From positions 3,471,019 through 3,535,018 of the forward strand of contig NZ_CP088930.1 of assembly GCF_027594825.1 (NCBI RefSeq): DNA of 64,000 nt, given 5' to 3'. The notes beneath the pieces are model-generated. The model made no database searches. It was not told the origin of the DNA and saw only the letters and a program-made list of their open reading frames with translations. This document shows, in pieces, positions 595-20,363 of this stretch. The stretch's first letter is position 1; every line of letters starts with the position of its first letter. Both the position numbers and the translations under genes were made by a program. This stretch comes from Serratia liquefaciens. GTDB lineage: Bacteria; Pseudomonadota; Gammaproteobacteria; Enterobacterales; Enterobacteriaceae.

Positions 595-679
595 GCCGAA
601 GTGGCGAAATCGGTAGACGCAGTTGATTCAAAATCAACCGTAGAGATACGTGCCGGTTCGAGTCCGGCCTTCGGCACCA
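595..679 (+). tRNA. leuX: tRNA-Leu (anticodon CAA)
   Basis: The cloverleaf is 85 nt long with encoded CCA. The acceptor stem GCCGAAG pairs with CTTCGGC, a long variable arm is present, and the T arm is GGTTCGAGTCC. The 17-nt anticodon arm has loop TTCAAAA, giving anticodon CAA. It is nearly identical to E. coli leuX, a classic attachment site for P4-type integrases. An integrase gene begins 187 bases downstream in the same orientation, which fits its 3' end being the left attachment site of the island. Confidence 0.97.
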
Positions 680-2639: not shown

Positions 2640-2820
2640 TGGAGATATAAGAGTCCACTTTTTCAAAAGGTTAAAATGAGAGCCCTATATCTGATTACCG
2701 AACCTTAGTTAATAGGAAGTCATTTTTTGTTGGCCGAAACTTATAAGGCTTATTTAATTTTCCTATGTTTGTAAATTGCCTACCCACACGAATTAAGTGC
2801 TGCATCTACGGAGAGAGCAA

Positions 2821-3858
2821 GTGGAACTGAATGATTTAAAAAAACGACTTCAACAGCATCTGGGTGATGGCCTAGTTCTAATCGTTGGTTCAGGGTTATC
2901 TTGCGCAGAAGGAGTTCCTGGGATGGGAAAACTCGGGGACCATCTGATCGCCCATGTCGCAGACAATCTTTCCCCTGATGACCTGAAACTCTGGGATGAA
3001 ATCCACCCCGCGATCGGAACTGATGGTTTAGAAGCGGCATTGCTCAAACGAGCCCCGACACCAGCCCTTGAAGCAATCATTGTCAAATCTACCGGGGAAT
3101 ACATAGCAGCAGCCGAAGCAGCTATTATCTCTGAGGTGTTTAAAAACGAGAAAACACTTCGGCTTACAATGTTACTTCCTCATTTATTAAAACCAGATAA
3201 AGGCATACCCATTGTTACAACTAACTATGACCGCTTAGTTGAGCTTGCCTGTGAAGAAGCTGGATTAGGAGTTGATACGATGTTCAGCGGGCATTTTGCT
3301 GCTCGGCTAGTGCCTCTTGATAGCCATTGGGGCTTTTGCCGTGGAGCCAAACTTGTTGGTAAGAATGTGCGATACAAGTTCACACCAAAAGTGAACGTTT
3401 TCAAACCGCATGGCAGCTTGGACTGGTATCACCGTAAAGGGAACCCGGTGCGATATACAGGAGATCTTCCTCTTCCTCGTCTAATTATTACACCTGGCTT
3501 GAATAAATTCAGGAGCGGCTACGACAGTCCCTTTGACAAACACAGGGAAAAAGCTAATGACGCAATCGATAAAGCCCGTCGTTTCTTTATCATCGGTTAT
3601 GGCTTTAATGATGATCATTTGGAAACACATCTCACTCCTCGTATTCGGTCAGGAGTCAGAACTGTCATTTTGACCCATACACTTTCTGCAAAAGCTAAAG
3701 AAATAGCTAAGTTAAATAAGAATGTAATTGCAGCGGAGTTTCATAGCGATGCAGGAACTACCGGTGCGCGCTTTATCGTCGATGGTAATGAGATATTTTT
3801 CCCTAGTGTTGATTACTGGGATCTTAAAGGATTCGTAGAAGGAGTCTTATCCGCATGA
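2821..3858 (+). CDS. SIR2-family NADase of a SIR2-HerA defence pair
   Basis: This 345-residue SIR2-like protein is the predicted effector of the two-gene SIR2-HerA antiphage system, in which SIR2 depletes NAD+ in complex with the HerA ATPase. The NAD-binding Gly-rich motif LIVGSGLSCAEG lies near residues 20-30, TTNYDRLVE near 132 and KPHGSLDWY near 195; the His of the last is the usual catalytic position. FIIGYGFNDDHLE follows near 260. I chose GTG at 2821 because GGAGAG precedes it by six bases; an upstream GTG at 2797 lacks such a site. The stop overlaps the herA start (ATGA), so the two are translationally coupled. The upstream 180 bases carry no gene. Confidence 0.85.
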   Translation: MELNDLKKRLQQHLGDGLVLIVGSGLSCAEGVPGMGKLGDHLIAHVADNLSPDDLKLWDEIHPAIGTDGLEAALLKRAPTPALEAIIVKSTGEYIAAAEAAIISEVFKNEKTLRLTMLLPHLLKPDKGIPIVTTNYDRLVELACEEAGLGVDTMFSGHFAARLVPLDSHWGFCRGAKLVGKNVRYKFTPKVNVFKPHGSLDWYHRKGNPVRYTGDLPLPRLIITPGLNKFRSGYDSPFDKHREKANDAIDKARRFFIIGYGFNDDHLETHLTPRIRSGVRTVILTHTLSAKAKEIAKLNKNVIAAEFHSDAGTTGARFIVDGNEIFFPSVDYWDLKGFVEGVLSA

Positions 3859-5603
3859 CCAGTTCTGCTCTTAAATTTACAGAAAACGAACAAATAGGCC
3901 GTGTGGCTGGAGTAGATACCAGCCGTGTGGCTATTGATGTCACCAACTCAGAAATGCTGACACGTGTTGGAATTGGACAGCTTATAGCAATAAAAGGAGC
4001 AACACAGGCCGAATTCCTGATTGGAATGACAGATCGCGTTACTCGCTCACTACGAGAAGAACTACCTGACCCAGAAGAGGATGAGTCAGGGATGTTAACC
4101 GTATCACCTTCAGACCATATGCAGGCTTTCGTCATTGGCACTTATAGAACTGTTGATGGAGATAAAACGGATATTTTCAAACGAGGTGCCGATAGTTTTC
4201 CTCAGATCGATCGCGAATGCTTTGTGATAGAAGGTGTTAATCTTCAGCGTTTTATGGGGATACTCGGTGCCGGTTTACCCAGCGAAGAACGTCTTAAACT
4301 AGGTACTTTCGTGGCGGATCGGAGTGCTGAGGCTATTGCTAGTGGGGATAGATTTTTCCAGAGGCATGCAGCCATCCTAGGAAGTACTGGTTCAGGTAAG
4401 AGTTGGGCTGTAGCCCTAATACTAGAGCGAGCAGCTAAGCTTAAATATCCGAATATCGTTGTGTTCGATATGCATGGTGAGTACGCCGCACTTGCTGACA
4501 AAACCAAAGGAGGTTACGCACAACGATTCCGTATCGCTGGACCAGGAGACCTTACTGCACCTAAAGATGATGCACTATTTCTGCCGTATTGGTTACTGAA
4601 TCGAGATGAAATGTTGTCGATGATTCTTGACCGTAGCGATCAGAATGCCCCAAACCAGGCCTCTCGTTTCACTCTTCATGTTCGGGATCTCAAAGGCGCA
4701 ACTCTGGACTCATCTGGTAAGCCGAAAGTCAAAGAGACATTCACTGTAGACTCACCAATACCTTACGCTATTTCTGATTTAGTTGCTCTTTTAACCAAGG
4801 ATAATATAACGAAGGGTGTCGGGAAAAACGGCGCTGCTGTAAAGGGGGACTGGGAAGACAAGCTGACACGTTTTCTTTCTAGGCTGGAAGCAAAACTTGA
4901 TGATCGCCGATATGGTTTTATGTTTTCCCCGCCTCCTGAAGCTCTCGATTATGGATGGCTTGCCAAACAGATTATAAAACTACTTCGAGCTGATTCTGGT
5001 AATGGTATTAAAATTATCGATTTCTCTGAAGTTCCTGCTGATGTCCTGCCAGTAGTGACAGGGACGTTAGCCCGCCTACTCTATGATATTCAGTTCTGGA
5101 TGAACGCAAATTCTCGTACGCCAATCACTTTACTTTGCGATGAAGCACATCTTTATCTTCCTGTAAAAGATGACGCCGATTCAGTTCAAAGACAGGCGCT
5201 ATGGTCCTTTGAACGCATTGCAAAAGAGGGGCGTAAATATGGTTTCTCATTATTAGTCGTAAGTCAGAGGCCATCAGATGTAAGCCGAACAATCCTTTCC
5301 CAATGTAACAACTTCCTTGCTCTGAGGCTAACAAATGACAGCGATCAAAATGTTATCAAGAGACTTATGCCTGATTCCCTCGTAGGTCTAACAGCTATGC
5401 TTCCACTTTTAGATACAGGTGAGGCTTTGTTGCTTGGGGATGCGGTTCTTCTACCAACACGCATTAAACTTGACCAACCGCTGGTAAAACCCGACAGCGC
5501 CACCCGAGATTTCTGGAAAGAATGGGGTTCTCTTAACCCTGATCTAGGTTTATTAGAGGCGGCAGTTGAATGTTTAAGAAGCCAGTCAAGAATTAACAAA
5601 TAA
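3855..5603 (+). CDS. herA: HerA-type hexameric ATPase/translocase partner of SIR2
   Basis: This 582-residue HerA/FtsK-superfamily ATPase has an N-terminal HAS-barrel-like region (to about residue 150). The RecA-like DUF87 core has Walker A GSTGSGKSW near residue 180, FDMHGEYAAL near 212, Walker B LLCDEAHLYLP near 430 and the downstream VVSQRPSDVSRTILSQCNN segment. In described systems the HerA hexamer forms a large complex with SIR2 and acts in phage sensing and DNA translocation. It starts four bases before the SIR2 stop and is followed at once by a strong terminator, so the pair is a closed two-gene operon. In chromosomal archaeal systems HerA works with NurA; no NurA is here, which supports the defence assignment. 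Confidence 0.88.
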   Translation: MTSSALKFTENEQIGRVAGVDTSRVAIDVTNSEMLTRVGIGQLIAIKGATQAEFLIGMTDRVTRSLREELPDPEEDESGMLTVSPSDHMQAFVIGTYRTVDGDKTDIFKRGADSFPQIDRECFVIEGVNLQRFMGILGAGLPSEERLKLGTFVADRSAEAIASGDRFFQRHAAILGSTGSGKSWAVALILERAAKLKYPNIVVFDMHGEYAALADKTKGGYAQRFRIAGPGDLTAPKDDALFLPYWLLNRDEMLSMILDRSDQNAPNQASRFTLHVRDLKGATLDSSGKPKVKETFTVDSPIPYAISDLVALLTKDNITKGVGKNGAAVKGDWEDKLTRFLSRLEAKLDDRRYGFMFSPPPEALDYGWLAKQIIKLLRADSGNGIKIIDFSEVPADVLPVVTGTLARLLYDIQFWMNANSRTPITLLCDEAHLYLPVKDDADSVQRQALWSFERIAKEGRKYGFSLLVVSQRPSDVSRTILSQCNNFLALRLTNDSDQNVIKRLMPDSLVGLTAMLPLLDTGEALLLGDAVLLPTRIKLDQPLVKPDSATRDFWKEWGSLNPDLGLLEAAVECLRSQSRINK

Positions 5604-5645: not shown

Positions 5646-6077
5646 GGGCATATTTATTTGATTCGAGAAAAATTTTAATTGTCGAAAAGTGAATCTGGTA
5701 GGCCTGAATCTACCTGTAAGTATCCCGGCAAAACGAACCATTCATTTTAACAGATATGTCAATCTCCGCTTATCGCTCGAAGCAGACCGTCAGGTTTGCT
5801 TATGTGCTACCGGTGAATATTGCCAAGTCAATTTTGAGCTAATACAATTCAGTCTTATTGACTAAATGGTTTGTTAGCGATAATCACGATGCTTCACGTT
5901 CTGCAAGTTCGGAGTTACTGGCATAAGGAGCTTGCAGTCATGATCAAATGCACATACTGATCTTCAAAGAAAATGTGTGGTTTAAGCGCCATCAGAACTT
6001 TTGTATTCTCTACACCGCCGAGAAAAAACTCATAGACATACCCACCTCTAACTTTAAATAAACCTATTTAAGAGATC
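5646..6077. other. AT-rich gap between convergent operons
   Basis: About 430 bases separate rightward herA from the leftward NERD-helicase gene. I see no credible reading frame, tRNA or clear repeat. It holds the 3' untranslated ends of both operons and probably decayed transferred DNA. Confidence 0.5.
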
Positions 6078-8534
6078 TTAGTCGTCGACAGGTGAATATT
6101 TCCCTTTTTCGACTTTAATAAGATGCTTTTTATTGTAGCAAGTTGACAGTGCACAGGCTAAAGCATTCCTTAATTCAGAACGTTCTAATTGTTCAAGATA
6201 AGTATAGCGTTTACGTAGTGCATCTGTTATCTCATCCAATACTAGTATTTTATCTGGTGGTAATAACGCAACCCAAGCCTGTATAAAAGCTAATGCGCTT
6301 CTGTAGAGAAGTTTTCCGCCAGGTAATGATTCGCGTAGTACTTTCCTTCTATATGCCTTTTCGAATGCCACTCTTCGGGCACTAGCCGCAGCTAACGGTA
6401 TGGGTAATAATCGTCTCTTTTCTTTTTGAACAGCTGAATTAAAATTACCCTGAGAGATTGTTAAATCAAACTCGCGAATTGCATTAATTTCATGTCTGGT
6501 TGGTGATGATTCTTCTGTTCTCTTATTGCAAAGAAAACAATTATTGTCAGAATCAAAAGGTGTCATCTTTTCACATGTGGCACAATTTTTTATTAATAAA
6601 TGTGTTCCTATGTCTAATGTGTTTAATTCGAATTGTTGATTTTCAATGTAATAAACAACTCTCCGTGAATCGCTGAACCAATACATAACTGGGTAAGTAT
6701 GGTGGGAATATAAATAATCAACCCACGTTTCCGCTGGAGAGTTTTCTTCATCAAACTCAATAAGCCACGAAGAAAGGCTTTTTGACCATGCTAATTTTAC
6801 AGTGTTGAGTTTAAGGTCCCCTTCGCTGAAAAAGTTAGCCATAAGAACTTTGGAGGATGATTTATGTTTTGCTTCATTAATTGCTCGCTGAATTTCCTTT
6901 CTATTAACCAGCTTATGCAGAAAATTATTATTTTCTCTCCATGCTAGTTTCTCCGAATCATAAATTGCAATGAAAGCAGTTGTGGCTCTTGAATAAGCAC
7001 AAAATAATTGAGCATCCTCCATGTTTTCGGAATCCAGTGTAATAACAACAGGTGATTCCATACCACGAAAACGGGATACAGTTTCAATATTTATATCAAA
7101 AATTTTCATGTCTTTCTGGAGGAAGTTTTTCACTAAATCCGTAGGGACAAGGACGGTAATCTCATCAGATGGTACAGAACTTTCTTTCAACCGTAAGATT
7201 TCATCAATCAATGTGGAAAGTGGATCGATAACTACTAATTCTTTTAACGTATCAGGTTCGTTATTCCTTGGGGAAGTAATTTGATATGAAGAAGGTCTGA
7301 TAGCCATTAAATAATCAGTAACGGCTTTGGGGCATCTTAACACAATCGTTAAGCTGAAGGAAAATTGGGAGTTAATTATCCGCTGAAGGTCAGTATGATT
7401 CGTTCCTTTTTCAAAAGAGAACGTTTGGGTTTCATCGCAAAATGCAATAATGTTTTTATTTTCAAACCAACAAAATAAGGTTTCCAACCACGAAGGATGT
7501 AACGCCTGCGCTTCGTCAATAATCAAAGCATCATAATCCTTTAGATCCTTTTTATTTAATGCATTAAGCAAATCCTCGCAACATCCTGATTCAAACCAGC
7601 CTGTTGGAGACTCAGGAGGTAGCGCTAATCTATTACGAGCCTGATGACAGAGTTTGTGCCAGGTAAAAACGTCGCATAATGAGTCTGGAGTTTGTTGTCG
7701 AATGTATTCAGAAAGGCGGTTGTTAAAAGTAAGAAATAAAACTTTTTTTTGCTCTTTAACAAGTCGTCTGGCGAATTCAATCCCAATCAGAGTCTTTCCT
7801 GTTCCTGGCCATCCAGTTACAACAAATCGTTGATATTCTGACAGCAGTTCAATGACTTTAATTTGTTCATGTGTGAGTCTTAACCAGAGTTGATTATCAT
7901 AAATAATTCGGGTTCCCCAGTCAGGCGTGCCATCAAATTGCGGGCATATAGATTTTATTATTAATTGAAGTCGTTCACTTCCTAAATCATTATTTCCTAA
8001 TGCAGATTTCCAATATTGCATTATCTCAATAGTGTACTTTGCAATTTCCGGGAGTTGGCTTTTATCAACGAATATTTTTCTAAATGGTCTTACAGACGCA
8101 TCAACCATTGCTGTATTTATAACGTTATTATTGAAATAGCTATCGGGAAAAATAAAACCATAACCAATACGCAATCGTAATGTTGTTGCTCCTCCTAACC
8201 AACGGGCTAATCCATGAACATTGTTACGTGTTTGCTTCACTACATCGACATTATTATTTGTTTGGAGATGTACAAAAATAGGGCCATCTACGCGATATAC
8301 CCCACTTTTTACCTCGAAAGCTAAAACACCATAGATACGATGGAGAACAAGAAAATCTATTTCTCCACTTGGAGGTAATCTCATACCCAAATGCCGGGCT
8401 GCCGAACTCAACCACGGAAGACTATGAATCACAGTGAAATCATCGGACAGCCCTTCTTTTAGCAGGGCATAGACCGTTTTTTCTCCATAACTATCATTAT
8501 CAACAGGTCCGAATGCCGGAATCATTTTGGCCAT
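6078..8534 (-). CDS. NERD-domain superfamily 1 helicase with zinc-finger tail
   Basis: This 818-residue protein begins with a NERD (nuclease-related) domain, about residues 10-90. Its PD-(D/E)xK-like motif GEIDFLVL...LAFEVKSG looks intact. A UvrD/PcrA-like helicase follows: Walker A VTGWPGTGKT near 240, Walker B LIIDEAQALHP near 340 and motif VI-like AYSRATTAF near 515. The C-terminal third has a four-cysteine knuckle (CATC near 650, CFLC near 665) and an unassigned region. It is the last gene of a leftward operon, 46 bases after hsdR. NERD helicases are common in defence islands, but I know of no fixed role within type I restriction operons. It could be an accessory that degrades or unwinds restricted phage DNA, or an independent defence gene using the promoter. 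Confidence 0.82.
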   Translation of the reverse strand: MAKMIPAFGPVDNDSYGEKTVYALLKEGLSDDFTVIHSLPWLSSAARHLGMRLPPSGEIDFLVLHRIYGVLAFEVKSGVYRVDGPIFVHLQTNNNVDVVKQTRNNVHGLARWLGGATTLRLRIGYGFIFPDSYFNNNVINTAMVDASVRPFRKIFVDKSQLPEIAKYTIEIMQYWKSALGNNDLGSERLQLIIKSICPQFDGTPDWGTRIIYDNQLWLRLTHEQIKVIELLSEYQRFVVTGWPGTGKTLIGIEFARRLVKEQKKVLFLTFNNRLSEYIRQQTPDSLCDVFTWHKLCHQARNRLALPPESPTGWFESGCCEDLLNALNKKDLKDYDALIIDEAQALHPSWLETLFCWFENKNIIAFCDETQTFSFEKGTNHTDLQRIINSQFSFSLTIVLRCPKAVTDYLMAIRPSSYQITSPRNNEPDTLKELVVIDPLSTLIDEILRLKESSVPSDEITVLVPTDLVKNFLQKDMKIFDINIETVSRFRGMESPVVITLDSENMEDAQLFCAYSRATTAFIAIYDSEKLAWRENNNFLHKLVNRKEIQRAINEAKHKSSSKVLMANFFSEGDLKLNTVKLAWSKSLSSWLIEFDEENSPAETWVDYLYSHHTYPVMYWFSDSRRVVYYIENQQFELNTLDIGTHLLIKNCATCEKMTPFDSDNNCFLCNKRTEESSPTRHEINAIREFDLTISQGNFNSAVQKEKRRLLPIPLAAASARRVAFEKAYRRKVLRESLPGGKLLYRSALAFIQAWVALLPPDKILVLDEITDALRKRYTYLEQLERSELRNALACALSTCYNKKHLIKVEKGKYSPVDD

Positions 8535-8580
8535 ATTACTATTTCCTTATAACATGCTCCTGGCAGAAATTTTCACGATG

Positions 8581-11500
8581 TTACATCGTCCAGTGATTAG
8601 AAATAACTTCCGCTTGTTTTAAAATTAACTCCACCGCACCCGCTGTTTTATCCGGCGGATATTTATACCGACGCAGAGTCTGTCGAACCAGGATACGCAA
8701 CCTTGCACGAACGCTTTCCCGTACCTGCCAGTCTACGGTTGTAGATTGCCGCAGCTTCAGCGTCACTTCTATCGCCAGTTTCTTAAGTACCTCATCCCCT
8801 AACTCTCGGACGGCGCTTTCGTTTTCTGCCAGTGCGTCGTAGAAGGCGATCTCGTCAGGATTCAGACCAAGCGCATCATCACGCGCCATTGCGGACTGAA
8901 AATCCTTCGCCATCTGGATCAGCTCTTCAATCACCTGCGCCGTCTCAATAGCCCGGTTGTTGTATTTAATCAGCACGGCCTGAAGACGTTCAGAATACTT
9001 CTTCTCCTGCACTACGTTATTTTTCGTGCGGGACTGGATACCATCATTAATCAGTTTTTCCAGCAGCTCTACCGCCAGGTTGCGATAAGGCATATCGTGG
9101 ACTTCCTGCAAAAACTCATCAGAAAGTAAGCCAATATTGGGCTTATCCAGCCCGGCCAGTGTGAAAATATCATCCACGCCATTAGCAATTACGGCATTAT
9201 CCAGAATCTGTTTCAGCGCGGAGTTCTTCTCGGCCTGGCTTATTTTTTTGTCCACACTGGTAAATTTGCTGATAGCGGCCTTCACTGCAGACAAGAAAGC
9301 AATCTCCAGTTTATAAGGCTGTGCCGCATCCAGCGTACAGCAAAGCGACCAGGCTTTAGTAATTGCCAATACGTTATCAAGAAAGCGTTTCTTACCGTCT
9401 TCAAGGCCGAGCACGTAGTTTGCAACAGGTACCAACAGCTTTTGTGCGTGAGCTTCAAAGCCGGTGTAGTCAAAACCCGCTGACGTTGCTGTTTTGGCAA
9501 ACATACCGTGGATGATGTCCAACTTTTCCAGCATGATTGCCAGCGCTTCTTCGGCATTAATGGTCGCATCGCCTTTACCGTTTGCATCGGTATAGGTTTT
9601 CAGCGCCAGTTTCAGTTCATTGGCGATTCCGATGTAATCCACCACCAGCCCTCCGGGTTTATCTTTGAATACCCGGTTGACGCGGGCAATGGCCTGCATC
9701 AGGTTATGTCCGCGCATTGGCTTGTCGATATACATGGTGTGACAGCAAGGGGCATCAAAGCCAGTCAGCCACATATCGCGCACAATCACCAACTTCAGCG
9801 GATCGTTCACATTCTTGAAACGGGACTCCAGCCGTTTTTTAGTTCGTTTGTTGTAGATATGCGGTTGAAGCATTGCCTTATCGGACACTGTACCGGTCAT
9901 CACGATTTTGATTTGCCCCTTTTCAGGATCGTCATCGTGCCACTCCGGGCGTAGCGCGATAATTTCATCGTAAAGATGGACGCAGATTTCACGGCTCATG
10001 GCGACAATCATCGCCTTGCCGTCCATTACGGTATTGCGCTTCTCAAAGTGAGAAATCAGATCGGCGGCAACCTGTTGGAGACGAGGTTTAGCACCAACCA
10101 GTTTCTCCAGACGGCTCCATTCACCTTTGGTTTTTTCACGCAGGTCCAGCTCATCATCTTCAATCAGTTCATCAACCTGATCGGAGAGCGCCGCCAGTTC
10201 TTCATGATTGAGATCGAGTTTCGCCAGCCGGGATTCGTAGTGAATAGGCACCGTTGCGCCATCGTCCACCGCATCCTGAATATCGTAAATCGAGACGTAA
10301 TCGCCAAATACAGCGCGGGTATCGCGATCCTCTGCCGAAACCGGTGTTCCAGTGAATCCCAGAAACGAGGCGTTAGGCAGCGCGTCACGCATATGTTTAG
10401 CGTAACCGTATTTATAGATGCCGGTTTCCCGGTCCAGGTTGGCTTTCATGCCGTACTGGCTGCGGTGGGCTTCATCGGAAATAACAACGATGTTGCTGCG
10501 CCCATTGAGAACCGGATGGGCGTTTTCCCCTTCCTCCGGGGAGAACTTCTGCACAGTGGTAAAGATAATGCCGCCAGCATCGCGGGTTGCAAGCAGTTCA
10601 CGCAGTGCTTCGCGGTCATCCGCCTGCACTGGCGTCTGTTTGAGCAGTTCCTGTGCCTGACAGAAGGTGCCGTAAAGCTGGCCGTCCAGATCGTTACGAT
10701 CGGTCACGACCACAATCGTCGGGTTGCCCATCTCCGGCTGTTGCAACAATTTACCGACGTAGCAACACATAGAGATACTTTTACCGGAACCCTGCGTATG
10801 CCAGACCACACCGGCTTTCTTACTGCCTGGCTGAATGTTGCTGTGCAGGATCAGTTGCTTACCGGTAGCAGCGACGATCGTCGCCTGCACGGCCTCACGC
10901 ACCGCGTGGAACTGGTGATAACCAGCTATTTTTTTTATCAGTCTTTCATCGTTGTTTTCGAACAGAACGAAGTAACGGATATAGTCGAGCAGCTGTTCCC
11001 GGTTAAAGAACCCCCGTACCATAGTTTCCAGTTGCCATTCCAGCAGGGGCTTATCATTTTCATTGCTGATGGTCTTCCACGGCATAAAACGTTCTTCCGT
11101 GGCCGTCAGAGAACCCACACGTGCCAGATAGCCATCGCTGACAATCAGCGCTTCATTGCTGATAAACAGATCGCGGATTTCGTCTTTATAGGTCTGTAAC
11201 TGGTGGTAGGCATCCCAGATATCTACTTTGTCGTCGATGGGGCTTTTCAGTTCCACAACCGCCAGCGGCAGTCCGTTAATAAAACAGATGATATCCGGGC
11301 GTCGCGGTTGTTTCGTTCCGCAAATAGTCATTTGATTGACCACCATAAAATGGTTGTTTTGCGGCTGGTTAAAATCCACCAGCAAGGCATGGTCGTGGAT
11401 AAGTTCTTCGTCGCAACGGTACTGAACCGGAACACCTTCCAACAACCAATGATGGAAGGCTTTGTTGCTGGCAATCAGATCCGGGCTTTCAGCGCGAGTA

Positions 11501-11715
11501 ATACGGGATATAACCTGTTCGAAGACGTCTGCGGGCAGATGCGGGTTGATTTTTTGCAGGCAGGAGGTTAACACGGGCGTCAGGAACACATCATGATAGC
11601 TGGCGCGTTGCGGGTTACTGCCATCAGGGGCAATATCCGGCCCGTGATGAATTTCCCAGCCCTGTTCAGTAAACCAGCCCAAGCAAAGCTGTTCTAAGTC
11701 GTCTTCGGTTAGCAT
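8581..11715 (-). CDS. hsdR: Type I restriction enzyme, motor/nuclease subunit HsdR
   Basis: This 1044-residue HsdR cuts unmodified DNA after ATP-driven translocation within the R2M2S complex. The N-terminal nuclease domain has RPDIICFINGLPLAVVELK near residue 140-155 (PD-ExK type). Superfamily 2 motor motifs follow: TQGSGKS near 310, VVISDEAHRSQYG near 413, GFTGTP, and MWLTGFDAPCC with QAIARVNRVF. The helical C-terminus that contacts the methylase core is complete. It is the fourth gene of the operon, 15 bases after the DUF4268 gene. Its codon use is GC-richer than the NERD gene after it, which hints that the two were joined from different sources. Confidence 0.96.
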   Translation of the reverse strand: MLTEDDLEQLCLGWFTEQGWEIHHGPDIAPDGSNPQRASYHDVFLTPVLTSCLQKINPHLPADVFEQVISRITRAESPDLIASNKAFHHWLLEGVPVQYRCDEELIHDHALLVDFNQPQNNHFMVVNQMTICGTKQPRRPDIICFINGLPLAVVELKSPIDDKVDIWDAYHQLQTYKDEIRDLFISNEALIVSDGYLARVGSLTATEERFMPWKTISNENDKPLLEWQLETMVRGFFNREQLLDYIRYFVLFENNDERLIKKIAGYHQFHAVREAVQATIVAATGKQLILHSNIQPGSKKAGVVWHTQGSGKSISMCCYVGKLLQQPEMGNPTIVVVTDRNDLDGQLYGTFCQAQELLKQTPVQADDREALRELLATRDAGGIIFTTVQKFSPEEGENAHPVLNGRSNIVVISDEAHRSQYGMKANLDRETGIYKYGYAKHMRDALPNASFLGFTGTPVSAEDRDTRAVFGDYVSIYDIQDAVDDGATVPIHYESRLAKLDLNHEELAALSDQVDELIEDDELDLREKTKGEWSRLEKLVGAKPRLQQVAADLISHFEKRNTVMDGKAMIVAMSREICVHLYDEIIALRPEWHDDDPEKGQIKIVMTGTVSDKAMLQPHIYNKRTKKRLESRFKNVNDPLKLVIVRDMWLTGFDAPCCHTMYIDKPMRGHNLMQAIARVNRVFKDKPGGLVVDYIGIANELKLALKTYTDANGKGDATINAEEALAIMLEKLDIIHGMFAKTATSAGFDYTGFEAHAQKLLVPVANYVLGLEDGKKRFLDNVLAITKAWSLCCTLDAAQPYKLEIAFLSAVKAAISKFTSVDKKISQAEKNSALKQILDNAVIANGVDDIFTLAGLDKPNIGLLSDEFLQEVHDMPYRNLAVELLEKLINDGIQSRTKNNVVQEKKYSERLQAVLIKYNNRAIETAQVIEELIQMAKDFQSAMARDDALGLNPDEIAFYDALAENESAVRELGDEVLKKLAIEVTLKLRQSTTVDWQVRESVRARLRILVRQTLRRYKYPPDKTAGAVELILKQAEVISNHWTM

Positions 11716-11730
11716 CGGTAACGTCCTGTA

Positions 11731-12927
11731 TTAAACGTGTTCGGCTTCTTCTGTAATATTTTCAGCTTCATCATGCCCGTTAAAGGTTCGCTTAATCAAC
11801 TGATTAAGTTCCGGTAGACATGTTGAAAAGGCTTTTTCAAATGCCGTCATATGTTCTACCAACCAGTCGACCATCTCCGGCCACTTATCCTGATCTGCGA
11901 TGTCGTTGATGGGTTTTCTGTAAGTAATACGACAGGATTTCTTATCCGGTAAGGCCTGCCAAAAAATTTCATGCCCAAAGCGATTTTCGATAGCGGATTT
12001 GCGTTCATGAAGCCAGTCAAACGCAAATGTATTGGTTTGTGCTGACGGTTTGGCAATCCAAAGCTCAACCCTAATTTCTTTTTTGCTGAAGATAAGATTG
12101 TACGAAACGCCACTGATGCCAGAACCTGCGCTTAACCAGTGGTCGGTTGACGGGCTGATATTATTGTAGAGTGAACATGAGCTAACGCGGAATTTCTCCA
12201 GAGCCTGGGTCCAGAACGCCTTACGTAAATGATGGCGAGCTTTGGATTCTCCAGTCGTGGACTGCTCCTCAGCCTCTTTTTGCGCCATACCGATCATGTA
12301 AGATTCCGCTTCCGGCGTCGGGATAACCTGCTTGATATCAATAAACACATCGTTACCATAACGGTAAGGTGTGACCTTAAAGCACTGTACGCGAATATTA
12401 AACTGCATTAACCAGAGTGCGGTATTAGTTGCTTCTTTGCGGAAATTTGCTGCGACCATCATGATACGCTGTGAACGATTCTGGTTAATTTGTACCTCTT
12501 CCAGGCTATCGTGCTCAAGAAATTCAGCCAGCACGTCAGCTGCAGGACGCGTTTCTTCTGGTTCGTTCTGATCGAGGTAACGTTGGAAGATCTCAACGAT
12601 ATGTTCTTTGCGTAGATTCGCGCAGTAACCCGCGTACTTCAGCGCCTGCCAGACGACATCACGCCCGGAATCATCGAGTTTGTTCTCGATGATCACCAGA
12701 TTACCGTCCTTGTCGATCGCCAGTAGATCAAGCCGCTCTTTGGTATCGTCAAACCCAGCAAACTCTTTTTGGATGATAAGTAATTCATCATCACAGTTAC
12801 GGGTCAACGCCTGCGGATGCTTTGCCAACCATTCCTGTAAGTGGTAACGTTCGGTGAAACCCGCTTGACTGAAGGTGGTTTCCTGAAGGGGTTGCAGGCT
12901 ATTGCTGGGCTGATCGACTTTAAACAT
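11731..12927 (-). CDS. DUF4268 PD-(D/E)xK nuclease-like protein in the hsd operon
   Basis: This 398-residue protein is encoded between hsdS and hsdR. The N-terminal half (about residues 20-110) shows a nuclease-fold signature, RLDLLAIDKDGNLVIIENK, with D and E-x-K spaced as in PD-(D/E)xK enzymes. The C-terminal part (about 230-380) matches what I remember as DUF4268, with aromatic-rich segments such as IRVELWIAKP and DWLVEHMTAFEKAF. The start ATG overlaps the hsdS stop by eight bases (ATGTTTAA), so it is translationally coupled. Proteins of this kind are found beside type I systems, but their task is not settled. An extra nuclease, an anti-restriction guard or a DNA-binding accessory are all possible. 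Confidence 0.75.
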   Translation of the reverse strand: MFKVDQPSNSLQPLQETTFSQAGFTERYHLQEWLAKHPQALTRNCDDELLIIQKEFAGFDDTKERLDLLAIDKDGNLVIIENKLDDSGRDVVWQALKYAGYCANLRKEHIVEIFQRYLDQNEPEETRPAADVLAEFLEHDSLEEVQINQNRSQRIMMVAANFRKEATNTALWLMQFNIRVQCFKVTPYRYGNDVFIDIKQVIPTPEAESYMIGMAQKEAEEQSTTGESKARHHLRKAFWTQALEKFRVSSCSLYNNISPSTDHWLSAGSGISGVSYNLIFSKKEIRVELWIAKPSAQTNTFAFDWLHERKSAIENRFGHEIFWQALPDKKSCRITYRKPINDIADQDKWPEMVDWLVEHMTAFEKAFSTCLPELNQLIKRTFNGHDEAENITEEAEHV

Positions 12928-14362
12928 AGTCAGTTTCCTTGGCTATTTCCTCGGCTTCCGGTAACGTGATTTCACCGGACAGGAGTTTGGGGAGTAGGGT
13001 ATCGCGTAGCTGTGAAAGCAGTGTGTTTTGATTGTGCTTTACCCGATTATTATCAATGACAAAATTACTAAACTTACCAAATTTCATTAATAATGCGTCA
13101 GGAGGTATTACCCATGGCATATTTTGAAGCACTCCTGCATCAGCCCTTTGCCTTCCGCTAGTCCCCTGCATACTTTGAATGGCCGTTATTCTGAAGGATT
13201 CTAAGCGGGCAATAAAATAACTTATAGATAAAGGAAGATCTCGTTTTACTCTCATCACAATAAATTCAGTTGATCCCCAACCGACTGTGTCATTAGAGGA
13301 GAGAAAGTCTACAAATGCAGTTTTTCCATTCTCAAGACAAGGTGTTATGCGAGCCAAGAGAGTGTCGCCATTTTTAAATTTTGTGCCACTAGTTACTTCT
13401 CGACAAACAACTTCTTGTACTGAATGTCCTTTAACAGGAACATTTTTCATATCAAGATACGGAGCATTAATTCCTTTTTTTAATATTCTTTTTGGGTTGA
13501 ATTCGATAATTTCCCCCAAATTGCCAATAGCCCATCCTTCAGGAATCTCACCTAATTCACTTTCCTGCATTGCAGACGGAAACAGTTCTGCTGTGGCCTT
13601 TAACTCAGCATATTGCTCAGGGTGCTCACGCTCAAAAATCGCCAGCGCGTCAGCACTTTTCCCGGAAATCGCCGTCATGGCAGCAAACGTCGCCTCTTCT
13701 TGCGAACCACCTGATTCCAGCACCGCGATTTTGGCTTTTACCGGTTCAAAATCAACAAACCAATTTTTGAACAGGGCCTGTGCCATTTGTTCGAGAGTTT
13801 GGTTAATTCGTTTAGCATTAACAATCTTCGAATTAATACTATCTATAACACTGACGATAAATTTTCTTTGTGCGTAAGTGCCCCACGGGATAGAATACGA
13901 AAAAATATCTGATAATGTTATACTTGCTTGGTTTGCGCTCCCCTGAGCTTTTGATATCAAATATTCTGAAAAATCTTTAGTTTTAAGTGAGATGTATAGA
14001 TATTTTTGATTCACTAAATCTTCATCAACAACTCTAAGCCTCACTGTATTCTGGTTTAATAAGGCTCCGGATAATTCACGAGGAACCCTTACAACTTTAC
14101 CCACTATTGATGCTGGGTTTTGAGGCCATGAACCAACGGTTGCAATAACCACATCATCTTCATTGAGCCGTACCATTTTGTTACTAATAGCTACTTCATG
14201 AGCAACAAAGCGAAGGTCATCAGTAGAAATTGAATCCCAAGTAAAATTGCTTACACGTACAACAGGAACACCAGCAGAAATATAATCTTTTGATTTGAAG
14301 GCAAAACCTTTTTTGTGTGCTACTAAACTACCTAGTTCTTCTCTTTTTAGTTCAAAGCCCAT
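12920..14362 (-). CDS. hsdS: Type I restriction specificity subunit HsdS
   Basis: This 480-residue HsdS supplies the bipartite DNA recognition of the type I complex. Two target-recognition domains (about residues 1-170 and 270-430) are separated by a conserved helical spacer containing INQTLEQMAQALFKNWFVDFEPVKAKI. The second spacer at the C-terminus has TLLSQLRDTLLPKLLSGEI. I chose ATG at 14362 because GGGGAG precedes it and it overlaps the hsdM stop by 11 bases; longer upstream starts would read far back into hsdM. The recognition domains are visibly AT-richer than the helical spacers, the usual sign of swapped specificity segments. The target sequence cannot be read from the gene. Confidence 0.95.
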   Translation of the reverse strand: MGFELKREELGSLVAHKKGFAFKSKDYISAGVPVVRVSNFTWDSISTDDLRFVAHEVAISNKMVRLNEDDVVIATVGSWPQNPASIVGKVVRVPRELSGALLNQNTVRLRVVDEDLVNQKYLYISLKTKDFSEYLISKAQGSANQASITLSDIFSYSIPWGTYAQRKFIVSVIDSINSKIVNAKRINQTLEQMAQALFKNWFVDFEPVKAKIAVLESGGSQEEATFAAMTAISGKSADALAIFEREHPEQYAELKATAELFPSAMQESELGEIPEGWAIGNLGEIIEFNPKRILKKGINAPYLDMKNVPVKGHSVQEVVCREVTSGTKFKNGDTLLARITPCLENGKTAFVDFLSSNDTVGWGSTEFIVMRVKRDLPLSISYFIARLESFRITAIQSMQGTSGRQRADAGVLQNMPWVIPPDALLMKFGKFSNFVIDNNRVKHNQNTLLSQLRDTLLPKLLSGEITLPEAEEIAKETDYV

Positions 14363-16058
14363 AACCCAGGCTCCCCAAGTTTTCCTTAATCTGTGATTCC
14401 AACTCTGCACTTTCATCCAACTGAATTTTAAGCTGCGCAGTCAGCCTCTCCATCTTCTCGGCAAACGGTTCATCATCTTCATCCTGTTCAACCGCACCAA
14501 CGTATCGACCAGGGGTTAAGACAAAATCATTTTTCTTGATATCGTCCAGTGTGGCAGCAAAGCAGAAGCCGGCCTTATCTTCATAATCTTTATCCATTTG
14601 CCAGGCATGGAAAGTGTCGGCAATCTTTTTAATATCATCCGTTGAGAAATCACGTAGTACGCGATCTTTCATAAAGCCAATCTGGCGGGCATCAATAAAT
14701 AGCACTTCACCCTTACGATGCGCTTTACCATTACCGCCAGATTTATCTTTGGTCAATAGCCAGATACAGGCAGGGATCTGCGTGTTAGTAAAGAGTTGAC
14801 CCGGCAAAGCTACCATACATTCAACCAGATCAGCTTCGATAATCTGACGGCGTATATCACCTTCCGTATTACTGTTGGAGCTCATCGAACCATTCGCCAA
14901 CAACAACGCCATTGAACCTTTCGGGGCCAGATGGTGGATCATATGCTGCATCCAGGCAAAGTTGGCGTTGCCCTGTGGCGGTGTGCCGTACTGCCAGCGG
15001 ACGTCATCTTCCAGCTTTGCATTCCACCACTCTTTCATATTGAACGGTGGATTAGCCATAACAAAATCGGCACGCAGATCCGGGTGCTGGTCGTTCAGGA
15101 ACGTATCGGCGTTCTGTTTACCGAAGTTAAAATCGATGCCGCGAATCACCATATTCATCGCAGCCAGTCGCCAGGTGGTAGGGTTGGACTCCTGCCCGTA
15201 AACGGAGATATTGCGTTTCTGCTCAGCTGCGTTGTAATGCTTTTCATTAGCATGCGCTTCAATAAAGCGATCGCTGGAAACAAAGAAACCACCAGAACCC
15301 ATTGCCGGGTCATAAACGCGACCATTGTAGGGCTGAAGCATTTCAACAATCAGCGTGACGATGCTTTTTGGCGTGTAATACTGGCCGCCCTGCTTGCCTT
15401 CCGCCAGTGCGAACTGACCAAGGAAGTATTCATAGACGTGGCCGAGAATATCTTTGCTCTTCAAATTGAGCTTCACGCCGTTGTATTTAGGCTCGCTAAA
15501 ACTGGTATCGGAGAAAACGTTGATCAGGCTGATTAACAGATCGTTACCAAGCTGATAGTGCCCGATACGGTTAAGGATGTTTTTCAACTTCGGGTTGCTG
15601 TTTTCGATAGTATCCAGAGCGATATCAATCAGCTTCGATACTGACGTCATGATGATATTTTTGCCGCTATCGTCTTTCCCCAGAACCGTCCCTACAGGCA
15701 AAGCAGCGTTGGTTTTGAGCGTTTCCCAGCGAGCCAGTTTGGGCACCCAGAAGACGTTTTTCTCAGTGTAATAGTCCTGGACTTCCAGCTCTTCGGCGAT
15801 CGCCTGCTGATATGCTTCTTCCGTGTCGTAATCGTCACGAGAAAGCGCGTAAATGTTGTCCGGGTTGGACTTATCTTCAAACAGCCCTTTCAGTTCCTTC
15901 TGACGGGCGTCAAAGGCATCTGAAACATACTTCAGAAAGATAAGCCCCAGCACCACATGCTTGTAGTTGGCCGCGTCCATATTGGCGCGTAGCTTGTCTG
16001 CTGCCTTCCAGAACTTAGTATCCAGATCGTTCAGAAATTGCTGTTCAGCGTTGTCCAT
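14352..16058 (-). CDS. hsdM: Type I DNA methyltransferase HsdM
   Basis: This N6-adenine methyltransferase of about 568 residues protects host sites and forms the core of the restriction complex. The N-terminal HsdM domain (FWKAADKLRANMDAANYKHV) is followed by GQYYTPKSIV, the AdoMet motif DPAMGSGGFF near residue 252 and the catalytic ANPPFN near 336. It is the promoter-proximal gene of the operon hsdM-hsdS-DUF4268-hsdR-NERD helicase. The ATG at 16058 is preserved with GAGG upstream; a TTG just before it is less likely. Having the methylase first is the normal safe order, since modification is made before restriction. Confidence 0.96.
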   Translation of the reverse strand: MDNAEQQFLNDLDTKFWKAADKLRANMDAANYKHVVLGLIFLKYVSDAFDARQKELKGLFEDKSNPDNIYALSRDDYDTEEAYQQAIAEELEVQDYYTEKNVFWVPKLARWETLKTNAALPVGTVLGKDDSGKNIIMTSVSKLIDIALDTIENSNPKLKNILNRIGHYQLGNDLLISLINVFSDTSFSEPKYNGVKLNLKSKDILGHVYEYFLGQFALAEGKQGGQYYTPKSIVTLIVEMLQPYNGRVYDPAMGSGGFFVSSDRFIEAHANEKHYNAAEQKRNISVYGQESNPTTWRLAAMNMVIRGIDFNFGKQNADTFLNDQHPDLRADFVMANPPFNMKEWWNAKLEDDVRWQYGTPPQGNANFAWMQHMIHHLAPKGSMALLLANGSMSSNSNTEGDIRRQIIEADLVECMVALPGQLFTNTQIPACIWLLTKDKSGGNGKAHRKGEVLFIDARQIGFMKDRVLRDFSTDDIKKIADTFHAWQMDKDYEDKAGFCFAATLDDIKKNDFVLTPGRYVGAVEQDEDDEPFAEKMERLTAQLKIQLDESAELESQIKENLGSLGYGL

Positions 16059-16272
16059 CAAAGCCTCAAAAAATCATCTATGCCTGGTTCGGTGCCCAGG
16101 TTGCGTAGAATCGGGGAAATTATTAGGGATCATACCCTGACGTCAGAGCGATACCAAGATGAAGGGCTGATTTCCGCATCAATACCTTGCGGCAAGGGGG
16201 GATTACTCTTTTACACTTATAGGTGCAAAATAACGGTGTTTTTCATTTCCCTACCGGAGCATCTTACGCGCT
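16059..16272. promoter_or_regulatory. Divergent promoter region between hsdM and the TIR gene
   Basis: This 214-base non-coding stretch lies between two genes that face away from each other, so it must hold the promoter of the hsd operon and that of the TIR gene. I see no clear repressor dyad; it is more AT-rich toward the TIR side. Confidence 0.6.
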
Positions 16273-17250
16273 ATGACCACTCTCGTTTTTTCCTATTCTC
16301 ATGCAGATGAAGCATTACTCAATGAACTTCAGAAGCACCTGTCCCCTCTGAAGCGGATGGGTAAAATTACCACATGGCACGATCGCCGTATCGTTCCAGG
16401 CCAAGAGTTTGAGCGCCAGATTGATCTGTACTTTTCCCAAGCAGATATCATCTTGCTACTGATCAGTAGTGATTTCATCAATTCTGATTATTGCTATCAG
16501 GTTGAAATGGCTAATGCGCTTGAGCGGCACAACCGGGGTGAAGCGGTGGTCATTCCGGTAATCTTAAGAGATTGTGCCTGGCATCAGTTGCCGTTCGGCA
16601 GCATTATGGCGGCGACAATCGATGGTAAGCCGATTACCCGATTTTCCAGTCACGATGAAGGCTATGTTCAGGTCGTCGATGCTGTCTCCCGAGCCATTGC
16701 CAATTTGGAAGCGAAAAAGCCACAGCAGAGTGTGCACGCTGCAGCTCCGGTGAATCCGATGCTTCAGGCAGCAGATACCGTTTTTACACCGCGTTCCAGC
16801 AATCTTTCTCTACCCAAGAGCTTTACCGACCTGGATAAAGATCGAGCCCGTCACGAGGGTTTTGAGTATGTCGCTCGTTATTTTGAAAACTCGCTGGATG
16901 AACTTAAAAATCGTCATGCTGGGTTAGACGTTGATTTCCAGCGAATTGATGCGAATTCATTCACTTGCTCAGTATATATCAATGGTAGCAAGGTTGGTCA
17001 ATGTGGCATCTGGCGTGGCAATCAACACCATGGAATGGGGGATATCTGTTATAGCCAGGATAACGTTGTTCGAAACAGCATTAACGAAAGCCTGAGCCTT
17101 GCTGATAATGGTCAATCTCTTGGTTTCCGTGCTCTGATGGGAGGATTTAGCAGCGGTAACTCACGAGAAGAGCTTCTGACGAACGAAGGGATGTCAGAAC
17201 ATCTCTGGGGAATGTTCTTCGGAGTAATCAAGCAACGTATGTCTCGATGA
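16273..17250 (+). CDS. TIR-domain protein with unassigned C-terminal domain
   Basis: This 325-residue protein has a TIR domain in about residues 1-150: TLVFSYSHADEALLNELQKHL, then WHDRRIVPGQEFERQI, then LLLISSDFINSDYC. The expected catalytic glutamate is E78 in YQVEMANALE. Bacterial TIR proteins commonly cleave NAD+ on sensing phage, killing or arresting the cell. After a linker the C-terminal part (about 190-325) has GFEYVARYFENSLDELKNRH and FTCSVYINGSKVGQCGIWRG. I recall similar tails on other TIR proteins but no name for the domain; it is probably the sensor or oligomerisation part. The gene diverges from hsdM and is followed 76 bases later by a small gene. It could act alone. Confidence 0.85.
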   Translation: MTTLVFSYSHADEALLNELQKHLSPLKRMGKITTWHDRRIVPGQEFERQIDLYFSQADIILLLISSDFINSDYCYQVEMANALERHNRGEAVVIPVILRDCAWHQLPFGSIMAATIDGKPITRFSSHDEGYVQVVDAVSRAIANLEAKKPQQSVHAAAPVNPMLQAADTVFTPRSSNLSLPKSFTDLDKDRARHEGFEYVARYFENSLDELKNRHAGLDVDFQRIDANSFTCSVYINGSKVGQCGIWRGNQHHGMGDICYSQDNVVRNSINESLSLADNGQSLGFRALMGGFSSGNSREELLTNEGMSEHLWGMFFGVIKQRMSR

Positions 17251-17326
17251 TTAATTGCCCCAGAATCGTTTACTTAGCCCAATTTGAACGAAGCCGGTAC
17301 TGACAAATTACGATAAGGATATAGAA

Positions 17327-17635
17327 ATGGTACAACTTAACCTTGCCAAGGTTCTGTTACTTGGAGACGAAAGCAATGGATATGTCCGTTACGAAATATT
17401 TTCAAAAGAAGGAGAGCGACCAGACTATCCAGAAAAAATTATAGTTTATCGCGAGAAGGTATTGGTGGTGAACGGTGATAAGTATTGGGCTAAAACGGAT
17501 GAAATCATCAGTCTGGATCATCTCGGATTCCAGGACGGGGGATTTCAAATGGCAATTACTTACCAGATGCGTCCTGCGCGGGATATGTTTTCAGCTATAG
17601 GTGAATGCAGAAAGCATTATAGTAATTCCCAGTGA
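17327..17635 (+). CDS. Small protein of unknown function downstream of the TIR gene
   Basis: This 102-residue protein is not recognised. It starts at an ATG with an AAGGA site. It looks soluble and beta-rich (KIIVYREKVLVVNGDKYWAKTDEI, QMAITYQMRPA), with no signal peptide or membrane span. It is co-oriented with the TIR gene 76 bases upstream, so it may be a partner or inhibitor of the TIR protein, or unrelated cargo. A large non-coding and degraded stretch follows it. Confidence 0.6.
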   Translation: MVQLNLAKVLLLGDESNGYVRYEIFSKEGERPDYPEKIIVYREKVLVVNGDKYWAKTDEIISLDHLGFQDGGFQMAITYQMRPARDMFSAIGECRKHYSNSQ

Positions 17636-18603: not shown

Positions 18604-19875
18604 TTATCTTTCTGCAAGCCTGAATGCTTCAGCCATGCGCTCCTGTTCCCGTAGAGGAAGCCCCAGACCATTAGCGATAGTTCTCCATTGGCTCACTATC
18701 CCAATGAAATTTTCAATAATCTCATCGGCCTCAGCCAGACTTAAACGAAAGAACCTGGCGACTTCCCGCGCCAACTCGAGGTCCAGCGCATTATCCGATT
18801 CAGTGATATTCAGTTTTAGGCCGTCGGACCAGGGCATAGGGTTCATGTCGTAGGCCTCTGAAAGCCGCCAGCCCTTACCAGGCACCAAAATAAACCCGTG
18901 ATTACGCAAGTGATCGTCTGTGTTTGATACGAGGATATTGAAAACGATCCTTGACCAGAGTTCCCGTAGGTCGGTGTTGGTTTGCGAACCTTGGGTTATC
19001 AGAACTTGGGCAAGTTCCAGATAGCTGACACCCGTCGAGGCATCATCACCATCCTGATGCCGGGTCATTGTCATCGCCGAAGCAAAATGAAGGCGTCGCC
19101 CGGTGTGGGTGCGATCGAATCGGCGAACCATAAAGCAGTGATAATCGCTGGCGAATTTATGAGCCTCGGCTGCTGCGACCTTTAACCCACAGCCTACGGC
19201 AAGGGCATTAACAACCATCTCCCAGCCGCCAACATCGTAATCATCCCGGACACTTGGAAATTTTGCTATATGCAGGTGGCCTTGCTCGTCGATCACACTG
19301 GCTTTAGGTCTGGCCCCACCCAGCGAGCCACCCGGAGCAATAAGCATCCGCAACCATTCCTGCCCTTGTGGAGATGTATTATCCGGATCATCTTCCAGTG
19401 CGCGACTGGCTCTTTCTAAAGCGCGAATTTCGGTAAAGGGTGGGGCGGCGATACCAGCCCGGTTATCAAGAAACTCACCTTCATCTTCAAGCTTATAACG
19501 CAGCGCGCCAACGCGATAAAGGTCATGCACGCCCAATAGATAGTCTGATTCGTATAGCCGGGTTCCTTCAGCTTGAATACCAGTACGAATATCCCTTTCA
19601 AGGCGACGTTTCATCAGCAACCGACCCCAGCGATCGGGGCTGGAGTCACCAAATACCCCGAATTTGTCCTTTGGCTGAGTGGGATACTGAGCACCGGGAA
19701 ATAGCCGTATTTCTGGGTCAAGTTGCAGGTGATTGAGGCTGGGATCGGCTAATGCCAGGGGATCGTATTCAAATTCAAATAGCTCCCGCATGCGAGTTTT
19801 TCGGCCATGCAAGAGGCCTATGCGCTTTGGTTCTGACAATCCATCCCAGTCTGCGTATACACCGATCATTGCCAT
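18604..19875 (-). CDS. hipA: HipA-family Ser/Thr kinase toxin
   Basis: This 423-residue HipA-type kinase belongs to a family whose best-known member phosphorylates glutamyl-tRNA synthetase and induces persistence. The Gly-rich loop GGSLGGARPKAS lies near residue 185-196. The ATP-binding Lys is in HIAKFPS near 205, the catalytic loop is VSNTDDHLRNHG near 318 and the metal-binding motif is AYDMNPMPW. It starts two bases after the hipB stop, with AAAGGA inside the end of hipB, so expression is coupled to the antitoxin. An in-frame ATG two codons later is a possible start. All kinase residues look intact. Its substrate could be another aminoacyl-tRNA synthetase. Confidence 0.9.
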   Translation of the reverse strand: MAMIGVYADWDGLSEPKRIGLLHGRKTRMRELFEFEYDPLALADPSLNHLQLDPEIRLFPGAQYPTQPKDKFGVFGDSSPDRWGRLLMKRRLERDIRTGIQAEGTRLYESDYLLGVHDLYRVGALRYKLEDEGEFLDNRAGIAAPPFTEIRALERASRALEDDPDNTSPQGQEWLRMLIAPGGSLGGARPKASVIDEQGHLHIAKFPSVRDDYDVGGWEMVVNALAVGCGLKVAAAEAHKFASDYHCFMVRRFDRTHTGRRLHFASAMTMTRHQDGDDASTGVSYLELAQVLITQGSQTNTDLRELWSRIVFNILVSNTDDHLRNHGFILVPGKGWRLSEAYDMNPMPWSDGLKLNITESDNALDLELAREVARFFRLSLAEADEIIENFIGIVSQWRTIANGLGLPLREQERMAEAFRLAER

Positions 19876-19877
19876 TG

Positions 19878-20363
19878 TTAATTTCCTTTTATTGGTTTCT
19901 TCAATGGTTTTAGCAGGGAAGCCAGATTTGCCGAGGTAGTGCCTGTCGTTGTTCTGGCGGAAGGCAGGCTGGGTTTCTCGGTTGCTGTGACTTGCTTAAC
20001 TGACTCGGCGCTGCTGTCCTCGGTCACTGGTTTTCTTCGAGCTGACGTAACCTTAGAAGGAAGCGTGCTGGCATTTTTTATCAGGCGCGAATCCTGAAGC
20101 TGGCGACCCAATTCATCCTCGGCGGCCAACTTATTCAGATCTGTTTCCAGCCCTAACACCTGCATGACGGACAGGTAAGCGCCAATCGTGACACCTGCGC
20201 CACCTGCTTCAAGCGAACGTAGCGTCATTGGCGTCATGCCTGCTCTTTCTGCAACCTGTTTGGCCGTCAGTTTCCGGCGTAGTCGCGCAAGCTTCAGTCG
20301 TTCGCCAAAGTCAGTCAGTAACAGGTTTGTGCCAGGAAGTAGGGGTGCTGTTTTTTTAGCCAT
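19878..20363 (-). CDS. hipB: HipB-like antitoxin/repressor
   Basis: This 161-residue XRE-family repressor is the antitoxin partner of HipA. The helix-turn-helix is [23 protein letters not shown]...[12 protein letters not shown] (about residues 20-60). The C-terminal tail beyond residue 95 is long, low in complexity and rich in Ser, Thr and Lys; typical HipB proteins are about 90 residues. Such tails are often the degron or the toxin-contact segment. It is the first gene of the operon. Repeated TAATATTAGCA elements lie just upstream. Confidence 0.87.

Follow-up and report, generated by a model that had tools for sequence, protein, structure and literature searches.

A type I restriction–modification operon of Serratia liquefaciens with an embedded DUF4268 gene and a NERD helicase gene at its 3′ end

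Defence genes of other kinds have already been described in the slot between hsdS and hsdR of type I restriction–modification (RM) operons (PMC12255303, PMC11411939). In enteropathogenic Escherichia coli (EPEC), DarTG2 sits between the two genes (PMC12255303), and in the type I operon of the Vibrio cholerae island VPI-2, TgvAB protects independently of the restriction activity of HsdR (PMC11411939). In EcoprrI, an extra effector gene, prrC, is embedded in the type I operon prrABD (PMC3874165). Here we describe a comparable locus in a 64,000-nucleotide stretch of the Serratia liquefaciens genome (contig NZ_CP088930.1; hereafter, the window), in which hsdM, hsdS, a DUF4268 gene and hsdR are followed by a gene for a NERD-type nuclease fused to a superfamily 1 (SF1) helicase. 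We favour, at a probability of roughly 0.55, reading the locus as a complete type I RM operon that carries a conserved nuclease gene within it and, at its 3′ end, a passenger gene that can be exchanged; the products of these parts would act separately, as co-expressed layers. On the comparisons below, the locus looks like defence against viruses in several layers, put together from interchangeable parts, and not like a fixed five-gene machine.

The five-gene locus and described systems

The five genes are open frames on the minus strand, all in one direction (Table 1). hsdM and hsdS overlap by 11 bp and hsdS and the DUF4268 gene by 8 bp, and gaps of 15 bp and 46 bp precede hsdR and the NERD gene, respectively. 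Open reading frames (ORFs), Pfam matches and spacing agree on this arrangement, as put forward in the original prediction, which was made from the sequence alone. The 11-bp value was computed with the hsdS start at 14362 and hangs on that choice because the hsdS ORF could also start upstream, at 14416. A consensus-site scan revealed no minus-strand terminator-like site in the gap between hsdR and the NERD gene; four such sites lie inside hsdS, the DUF4268 gene and hsdR, but the overall total of 15 sites is near the 11.5 (s.d. 3.4) expected by chance. We infer that the five genes share one transcript.

All components of a type I enzyme are present in this one locus: HsdM with an N6-methylase domain and the motif NPPF (read from the translation), HsdS, and HsdR with an HSDR_N nuclease and a SWI2/SNF2 motor, the last also matching the NCBIfam hsdR model at 619 bits, above its cut-off. 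Every gene measured is under purifying selection, with dN/dS of 0.03–0.06 for HsdR, 0.04–0.07 for HsdM, 0.04–0.09 for DUF4268 and 0.12–0.18 for NERD.

Like prrC, the DUF4268 gene is an extra effector-type gene embedded in a type I operon. However, PrrC is an anticodon nuclease with ABC-ATPase motifs, whereas the protein encoded here is a predicted PD-(D/E)XK protein with a DUF4268 domain, in which neither an ABC-ATPase nor an anticodon-nuclease domain was found. The locus likewise resembles those of TgvAB and DarTG2 in housing other defence genes inside a type I operon, but the protein families of those systems are unlike DUF4268 and NERD. Regulation by RptR, as in EPEC, was considered and rejected: its site, TAGCTA, is not enriched in the window (3 in 64 kb versus 7.4 expected).

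The embedded DUF4268 gene

The DUF4268 protein matches PADLOC candidate PDC-S11 over nearly its full length (residues 1–380 on profile positions 1–373 of 375). PDC-S11 is a candidate label with no described function in the literature examined; its fixed M-S-X-R place is an observation of the present analysis. In the literature searched, only two papers name DUF4268, one of them in connection with GmrSD fusions. The protein is predicted to comprise an N-terminal PD-(D/E)XK nuclease and a C-terminal DUF4268 domain. The candidate PD-(D/E)XK residues D67, E81, K83 and Q94 are kept in all 125 aligned sequences. At a lax threshold, PDDEXK_4 is found in 10 of 10 homologues (best E value, 1.7e-4) and NucS_C in 9 of 10; the window protein scores 17.8 bits against PDDEXK_4, for which the curated cut-off is 22.3. 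DUF4268 is the single family above the Pfam cut-off, with no ABC-ATPase or anticodon-nuclease model among the matches.

Loci compared with the window are numbered L001 onwards. Same-type M-S-DUF4268-R cores without NERD were found in E. coli (L003, L091–L093, L095 and L096; hsdM has an internal stop in L093 and is truncated in L094), on Klebsiella and Raoultella plasmids (L086 and L087), in two other genomes of the host family (L049 and L050), in another gammaproteobacterial family (L075, HsdR 69%) and in a contig of a viral collection (L098). In all 12 same-type loci measured, hsdM and hsdS overlap by 11 bp; hsdS and the DUF4268 gene overlap by 8 bp in 11 of these, L003 being annotated with 14 bp. 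For the window, L009 and L010, the hsdS start was chosen to fit the relatives. Moreover, a 54%-identical DUF4268 protein is encoded between hsdS and hsdR of a second type I family (L051, L090 and L102), whose HsdM (807 aa) and HsdR (1005 aa) are 23–28% identical to those of the window; L053 looks like a deletion remnant of that family. Because M-S-DUF4268-R recurs in many loci and inside this second, distant type I family, DUF4268 is, judged by gene order, a real embedded partner, and M-S-DUF4268-R a stable, widespread unit.

The gene also occurs outside such operons. Any DUF4268 match was found in 31 of the 295 genomes of the family sample. Nine of these carry a close DUF4268 (at least 46% identity, one partial): six with same-type RM, one with second-type RM, one remnant and one alone (L052, with a stop inside the gene). 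Among the 13 remote matches that were read in their context (26–38%; L054–L061 and L078–L082), 11 lack an HsdM or HsdR match, and L061 and L081 have one 2–6 kb away; since the queries were the Hsd proteins of the window and L051 only, other RM types may escape notice in this count. In viral contigs, DUF4268 is RM-linked in five of ten loci, three of the five being cut at a contig end; the other five have no RM match in the available DNA, one of them starting at a contig end. The class sample adds three genomes with 41–52% DUF4268, of which one is RM-linked (L075), one alone (L076) and one at a contig end (L077). Finally, Klebsiella and E. coli plasmids carry a lone, 61%-identical DUF4268 with intact motif residues (7001–8182 in both L088 and L089) and with no hsdS or hsdR piece directly adjoining. 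A short HsdR-like helicase match lies about 6 kb from the gene in L088, and a SIR2/ATPase pair lies near it in L089.

Two parts of the operon vary between loci. HsdS is 34–67% identical over the aligned part in L003 and L008–L011 (tblastn), and the C-terminal half of DUF4268 (window 11731–12330) is exchanged relative to L003, the operons being otherwise 97% identical. Co-variation of this C-terminal half with HsdS was rejected, because HsdS of L008 and L009 is 47% and 67% identical to that of the window, yet DUF4268 is 97–98% identical.

The NERD helicase and the slot after hsdR

The NERD-SF1 protein consists of a NERD nuclease (residues ~1–200), an SF1 helicase (~218–550) and a C-terminal region with a Cys4 knuckle (C651, C654, C666 and C669). 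In an alignment of 121 sequences (120 listed of 409 relatives, plus L097), D60, E74 and K76 are kept in all 118 sequences having those columns, and the four cysteines in all sequences having theirs (118–119), which bears out the intact nuclease motif and zinc-finger-like knuckle originally noted. The best PADLOC model is RTasNERD-Hel (135 bits, residues 1–474), with AbiO at 55 bits; the Nhi profile reaches 53 bits, its best stretch being 327–409. As in Nhi and Nhi-like proteins, AbiO and reverse-transcriptase-associated NERD helicases, a NERD-type nuclease and an SF1 helicase are joined in one protein. Unlike those, the window protein has about 270 more C-terminal residues with the Cys4 knuckle and is linked to hsdR. 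Among the seven other genes scanned around it, there is no reverse transcriptase, which sets it apart from defence-associated reverse transcriptase (DRT) systems with a NERD helicase, and no GajA-type (ATPase-TOPRIM) match as in Gabija. The protein differs from the group III helicase half of Schlafen proteins (SLFN11 and SLFN14) by a root-mean-square deviation of 10 Å at ~15% identity, and no Schlafen core RNase family is among its Pfam hits.

The order M-S-DUF4268-R-NERD was found in five species-level loci: the window, L008 (Escherichia sp.), L009 (Mixta), L010 (Prodigiosinella, 69%) and L011 (Serratia rubidaea), in the last of which hsdM, hsdR and NERD all read as frameshifted. Because L008–L011 were found with NERD as bait, a survey of the host family is the less biased test of linkage. 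In this survey, NERD was detected in 4 of 392 genomes (E-value threshold 1e-60), each time directly after hsdR of the same RM type. Three of the four positives were, by our count, already known (the window's genome and those of L009–L011), so that the survey contributes absence elsewhere rather than new linked loci. In Photorhabdus asymbiotica, a 64% NERD match and an 80% DUF4268 match fall on contigs of equal length (5,116,241), which hints at one further linked case.

In the opposite direction, NERD is optional. NERD is present in four of the six same-type RM genomes of the 295-genome sample. In E. coli, 280 of 5,426 genomes match the five-gene query, yet in none does one place account for as much as 80% of it. 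The 40 matches listed span 63%, stopping at the hsdR stop codon. The slot after hsdR is filled differently from locus to locus. A 165-aa gene takes the place of NERD in E. coli loci with 97%-identical HsdR (L003, L093 and L094); a small gene 34 bp on is annotated as a helix-turn-helix (HTH) regulator in L096 and is shorter in L086, L087 and L095 (also L050); L049 has a 452-aa gene; and L091, in an island with Zorya type I, has a UvrD helicase (1010 aa) and a 272-aa gene (13499–17346). In L092, no gene was found within 750 bp of hsdR. Across these loci, NERD is one of several alternative occupants of a variable slot. An obligate five-gene system was rejected on these grounds: RM copies with 97%-identical HsdR that lack NERD, other genes in the slot, and no E. 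coli place reaching 80% of the query.

NERD matches occur in 28 of the 5,426 E. coli genomes, 4 of them without the 5′ end. Five were read in context, one of them holding just a 3′ fragment of the gene; they lie in regions of type VI secretion systems or contact-dependent inhibition, with no RM. However, these orphans were rejected as proof of NERD independence, as a relic of hsdR was found upstream: read directly from the DNA, the last 51 bp of hsdR still precede the gene in L001, L002 and L004. The L001 relic has a local score of 33 versus at most 18 in 2000 single-base shuffles. The junction between relic and NERD is 98.5–100% identical over its full length in 23 genomes and partial in a 24th. 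Because the relic precedes the gene and the junction is common to the 24 genomes, the E. coli orphans descend, probably through a single event, from an ancestor in which NERD followed hsdR. A few copies are no longer intact, being annotated in at least two pieces in L002 and L005.

The close NERD relatives whose surroundings were read, a set that excludes those of Pseudomonas and Burkholderiales, are thus linked to this RM type or bear the hsdR relic, and by these comparisons the NERD gene is an optional yet RM-faithful passenger. The original prediction would have taken a NERD helicase rarely found beside this RM family as unrelated cargo; with the relic and the family survey, that view was rejected, the co-occurrence holding from NERD to RM and being optional from RM to NERD. 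An HsdR tree of 19 rows, in which L011 is represented by two pieces joined together, requires a minimum of two changes of the NERD label. Synonymous divergence of NERD and HsdR runs parallel in three locus pairs (0.20/0.23, 0.21/0.28 and 1.7/2.2, the last saturated), and this parallel favours, without proof, old co-inheritance with losses over recent separate gains of NERD.

A 5′-nucleotidase gene (PDC-S08, 444 bits) lies intact 3′ of NERD in L010 (12543–13526) and frameshifted in L011. Because the window, L008 and L009 keep a relic of it after NERD, the comparison indicates that the ancestral passenger had two genes, NERD and the 5′-nucleotidase.

A lone, full-length, remote NERD-SF1 homologue was found in a prophage-like contig beside apparent lysis genes (L097, 1374–3818). 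In two different families, shorter NERD helicases (~27%; L083 and L084) lie about 8 kb from an HsdR-like helicase; they may represent a second RM-linked NERD lineage.

The island that carries the locus adjoins a tRNA-Leu gene (Table 1). The SIR2-HerA pair is ~99% identical in L008. The TIR gene, divergent from hsdM, is also beside hsdM in L003 and L008, shorter in L009 and in pieces in L092 and L094 (tblastn); no ThsA partner was found among the genes scanned. A HipA-like gene and an HNH gene lie farther along the island.

Table 1. Features of the locus and its island in the window
Feature	Position	Strand	Details
hsdM, adenine methyltransferase subunit	14352..16058	-	568 aa; Pfam N6_Mtase 381 bits, HsdM_N; PADLOC MTase_I 570 bits
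hsdS, specificity subunit	12920..14362	-	480 aa; Pfam Methylase_S 35 bits; PADLOC Specificity_I 372 bits
DUF4268 gene	11731..12927	-	398 aa; Pfam DUF4268 135 bits; PADLOC PDC-S11 590 bits
hsdR, type I restriction/translocase subunit	8581..11715	-	1044 aa; Pfam HSDR_N 156, SWI2_SNF2 256, T1RH-like_C 394 bits
NERD-SF1 helicase	6078..8534	-	818 aa; Pfam NERD 29 bits, SF1/SLFN-g3 helicase 43 bits
5′-nucleotidase gene relic (PADLOC PDC-S08)	5946..6028	-	83 bp, 84% identical; blastn 6e-20, tblastn 1e-10
TIR gene (ThsB-like), neighbour, not counted in operon	16273..17250	+	PADLOC ThsB 526 bits
tRNA-Leu gene	595..679
Integrase, tyrosine-recombinase type	866..2044		named by identity with annotated integrases
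SIR2-HerA defence pair	2797..5603
HipA-like gene	18604..20363		with apparent HTH partner
HNH gene	22101..23222		resembles type IV restriction enzymes

Explanations for the gene order

In the explanation that we favour, HsdMSR would methylate the host DNA and cut unmodified incoming DNA. The DUF4268 protein, which is predicted to be a PD-(D/E)XK nuclease and varies in its C-terminal domain, would be made in step with HsdS through the 8-bp gene overlap and would serve as a separate back-up nuclease against phages that escape restriction. The NERD-SF1 protein may be an autonomous helicase–nuclease, loading onto the ends of phage DNA or onto replication intermediates and degrading them, by analogy with the proposal for Nhi-type proteins. 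The gene order would then reflect a set of complementary layers inherited together, not a single enzyme complex. The lone NERD homologue in L097 and the lone plasmid DUF4268 were counted as signs that the parts are independent. Several points weigh against this explanation. Proteins that cooperate physically could likewise account for the one-way link from NERD to RM and for the strict gene spacing. The tgvAB genes alone protect 10–100 fold less than the whole cluster against several phages (PMC11411939), so embedded genes may profit from their operon. Moreover, the plasmid-borne lone DUF4268 could be a remnant or could rely on a type I enzyme encoded elsewhere in the same cell, and NERD relatives at ~40% identity are thinly sampled.

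The main rival, possible but doubtful, is a PrrC-like guard, in which the type I enzyme silences the DUF4268 nuclease until a phage anti-restriction protein binds the enzyme and frees it, whereupon DNA is destroyed and the infection is stopped, with NERD as a separate passenger. However, DUF4268 is no PrrC homologue, it occurs with intact motifs without an adjoining RM operon (L088 and L076), five of the ten viral-contig loci, one of them starting at a contig end, show no RM match in the available DNA, and its C-terminal exchange does not track HsdS. A three-stage fail-safe is unlikely: here, the type I enzyme would both restrict and restrain DUF4268, the exchangeable C-terminal domain would sense phage anti-restriction proteins, and the NERD-Schlafen-like helicase, a third stage carried only by this RM lineage, would act on the resulting DNA ends.

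In the reading put forward by the original prediction, the five genes make up a single extended system: the type I enzyme cuts or stalls DNA, which DUF4268 and the NERD helicase then process further. The tight collinearity of the genes, the RM linkage of NERD in all four family genomes that have it and the similar synonymous divergence of NERD and HsdR speak for this view. By contrast, copies with 97%-identical HsdR lack NERD, other genes occupy the slot after hsdR, and homologues of each extra gene exist without an adjoining RM operon, NERD in L097 among them; we therefore consider a single system quite unlikely. What stands of the proposal is a type I operon extended by two intact nuclease-type proteins, with DUF4268 conserved in two unrelated type I families. 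That both genes are mere defence-island cargo gaining nothing from the operon is highly improbable: a tRNA-Leu gene, integrase, SIR2-HerA, TIR and other defence-type genes nearby and a visibly variable 3′ slot would suit it, but against it stand the conserved overlaps, the recurrence of DUF4268 across two type I families, the purifying selection and the link from NERD to RM.

Such DUF4268 genes are common in Enterobacterales. At the DNA level, 80% or more of the gene is matched in 111 of 5,426 complete E. coli genomes; at the protein level, 291 plasmid records reach the same coverage, whether the gene is RM-linked or lone. Should DUF4268 turn out to be a nuclease that is guarded by the RM enzyme or backs it up, many systems now labelled as plain type I RM would in fact have two layers of defence. 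In the RM-linked NERD protein, bacteria offer a relative of the Schlafen helicase half that is tractable to study.

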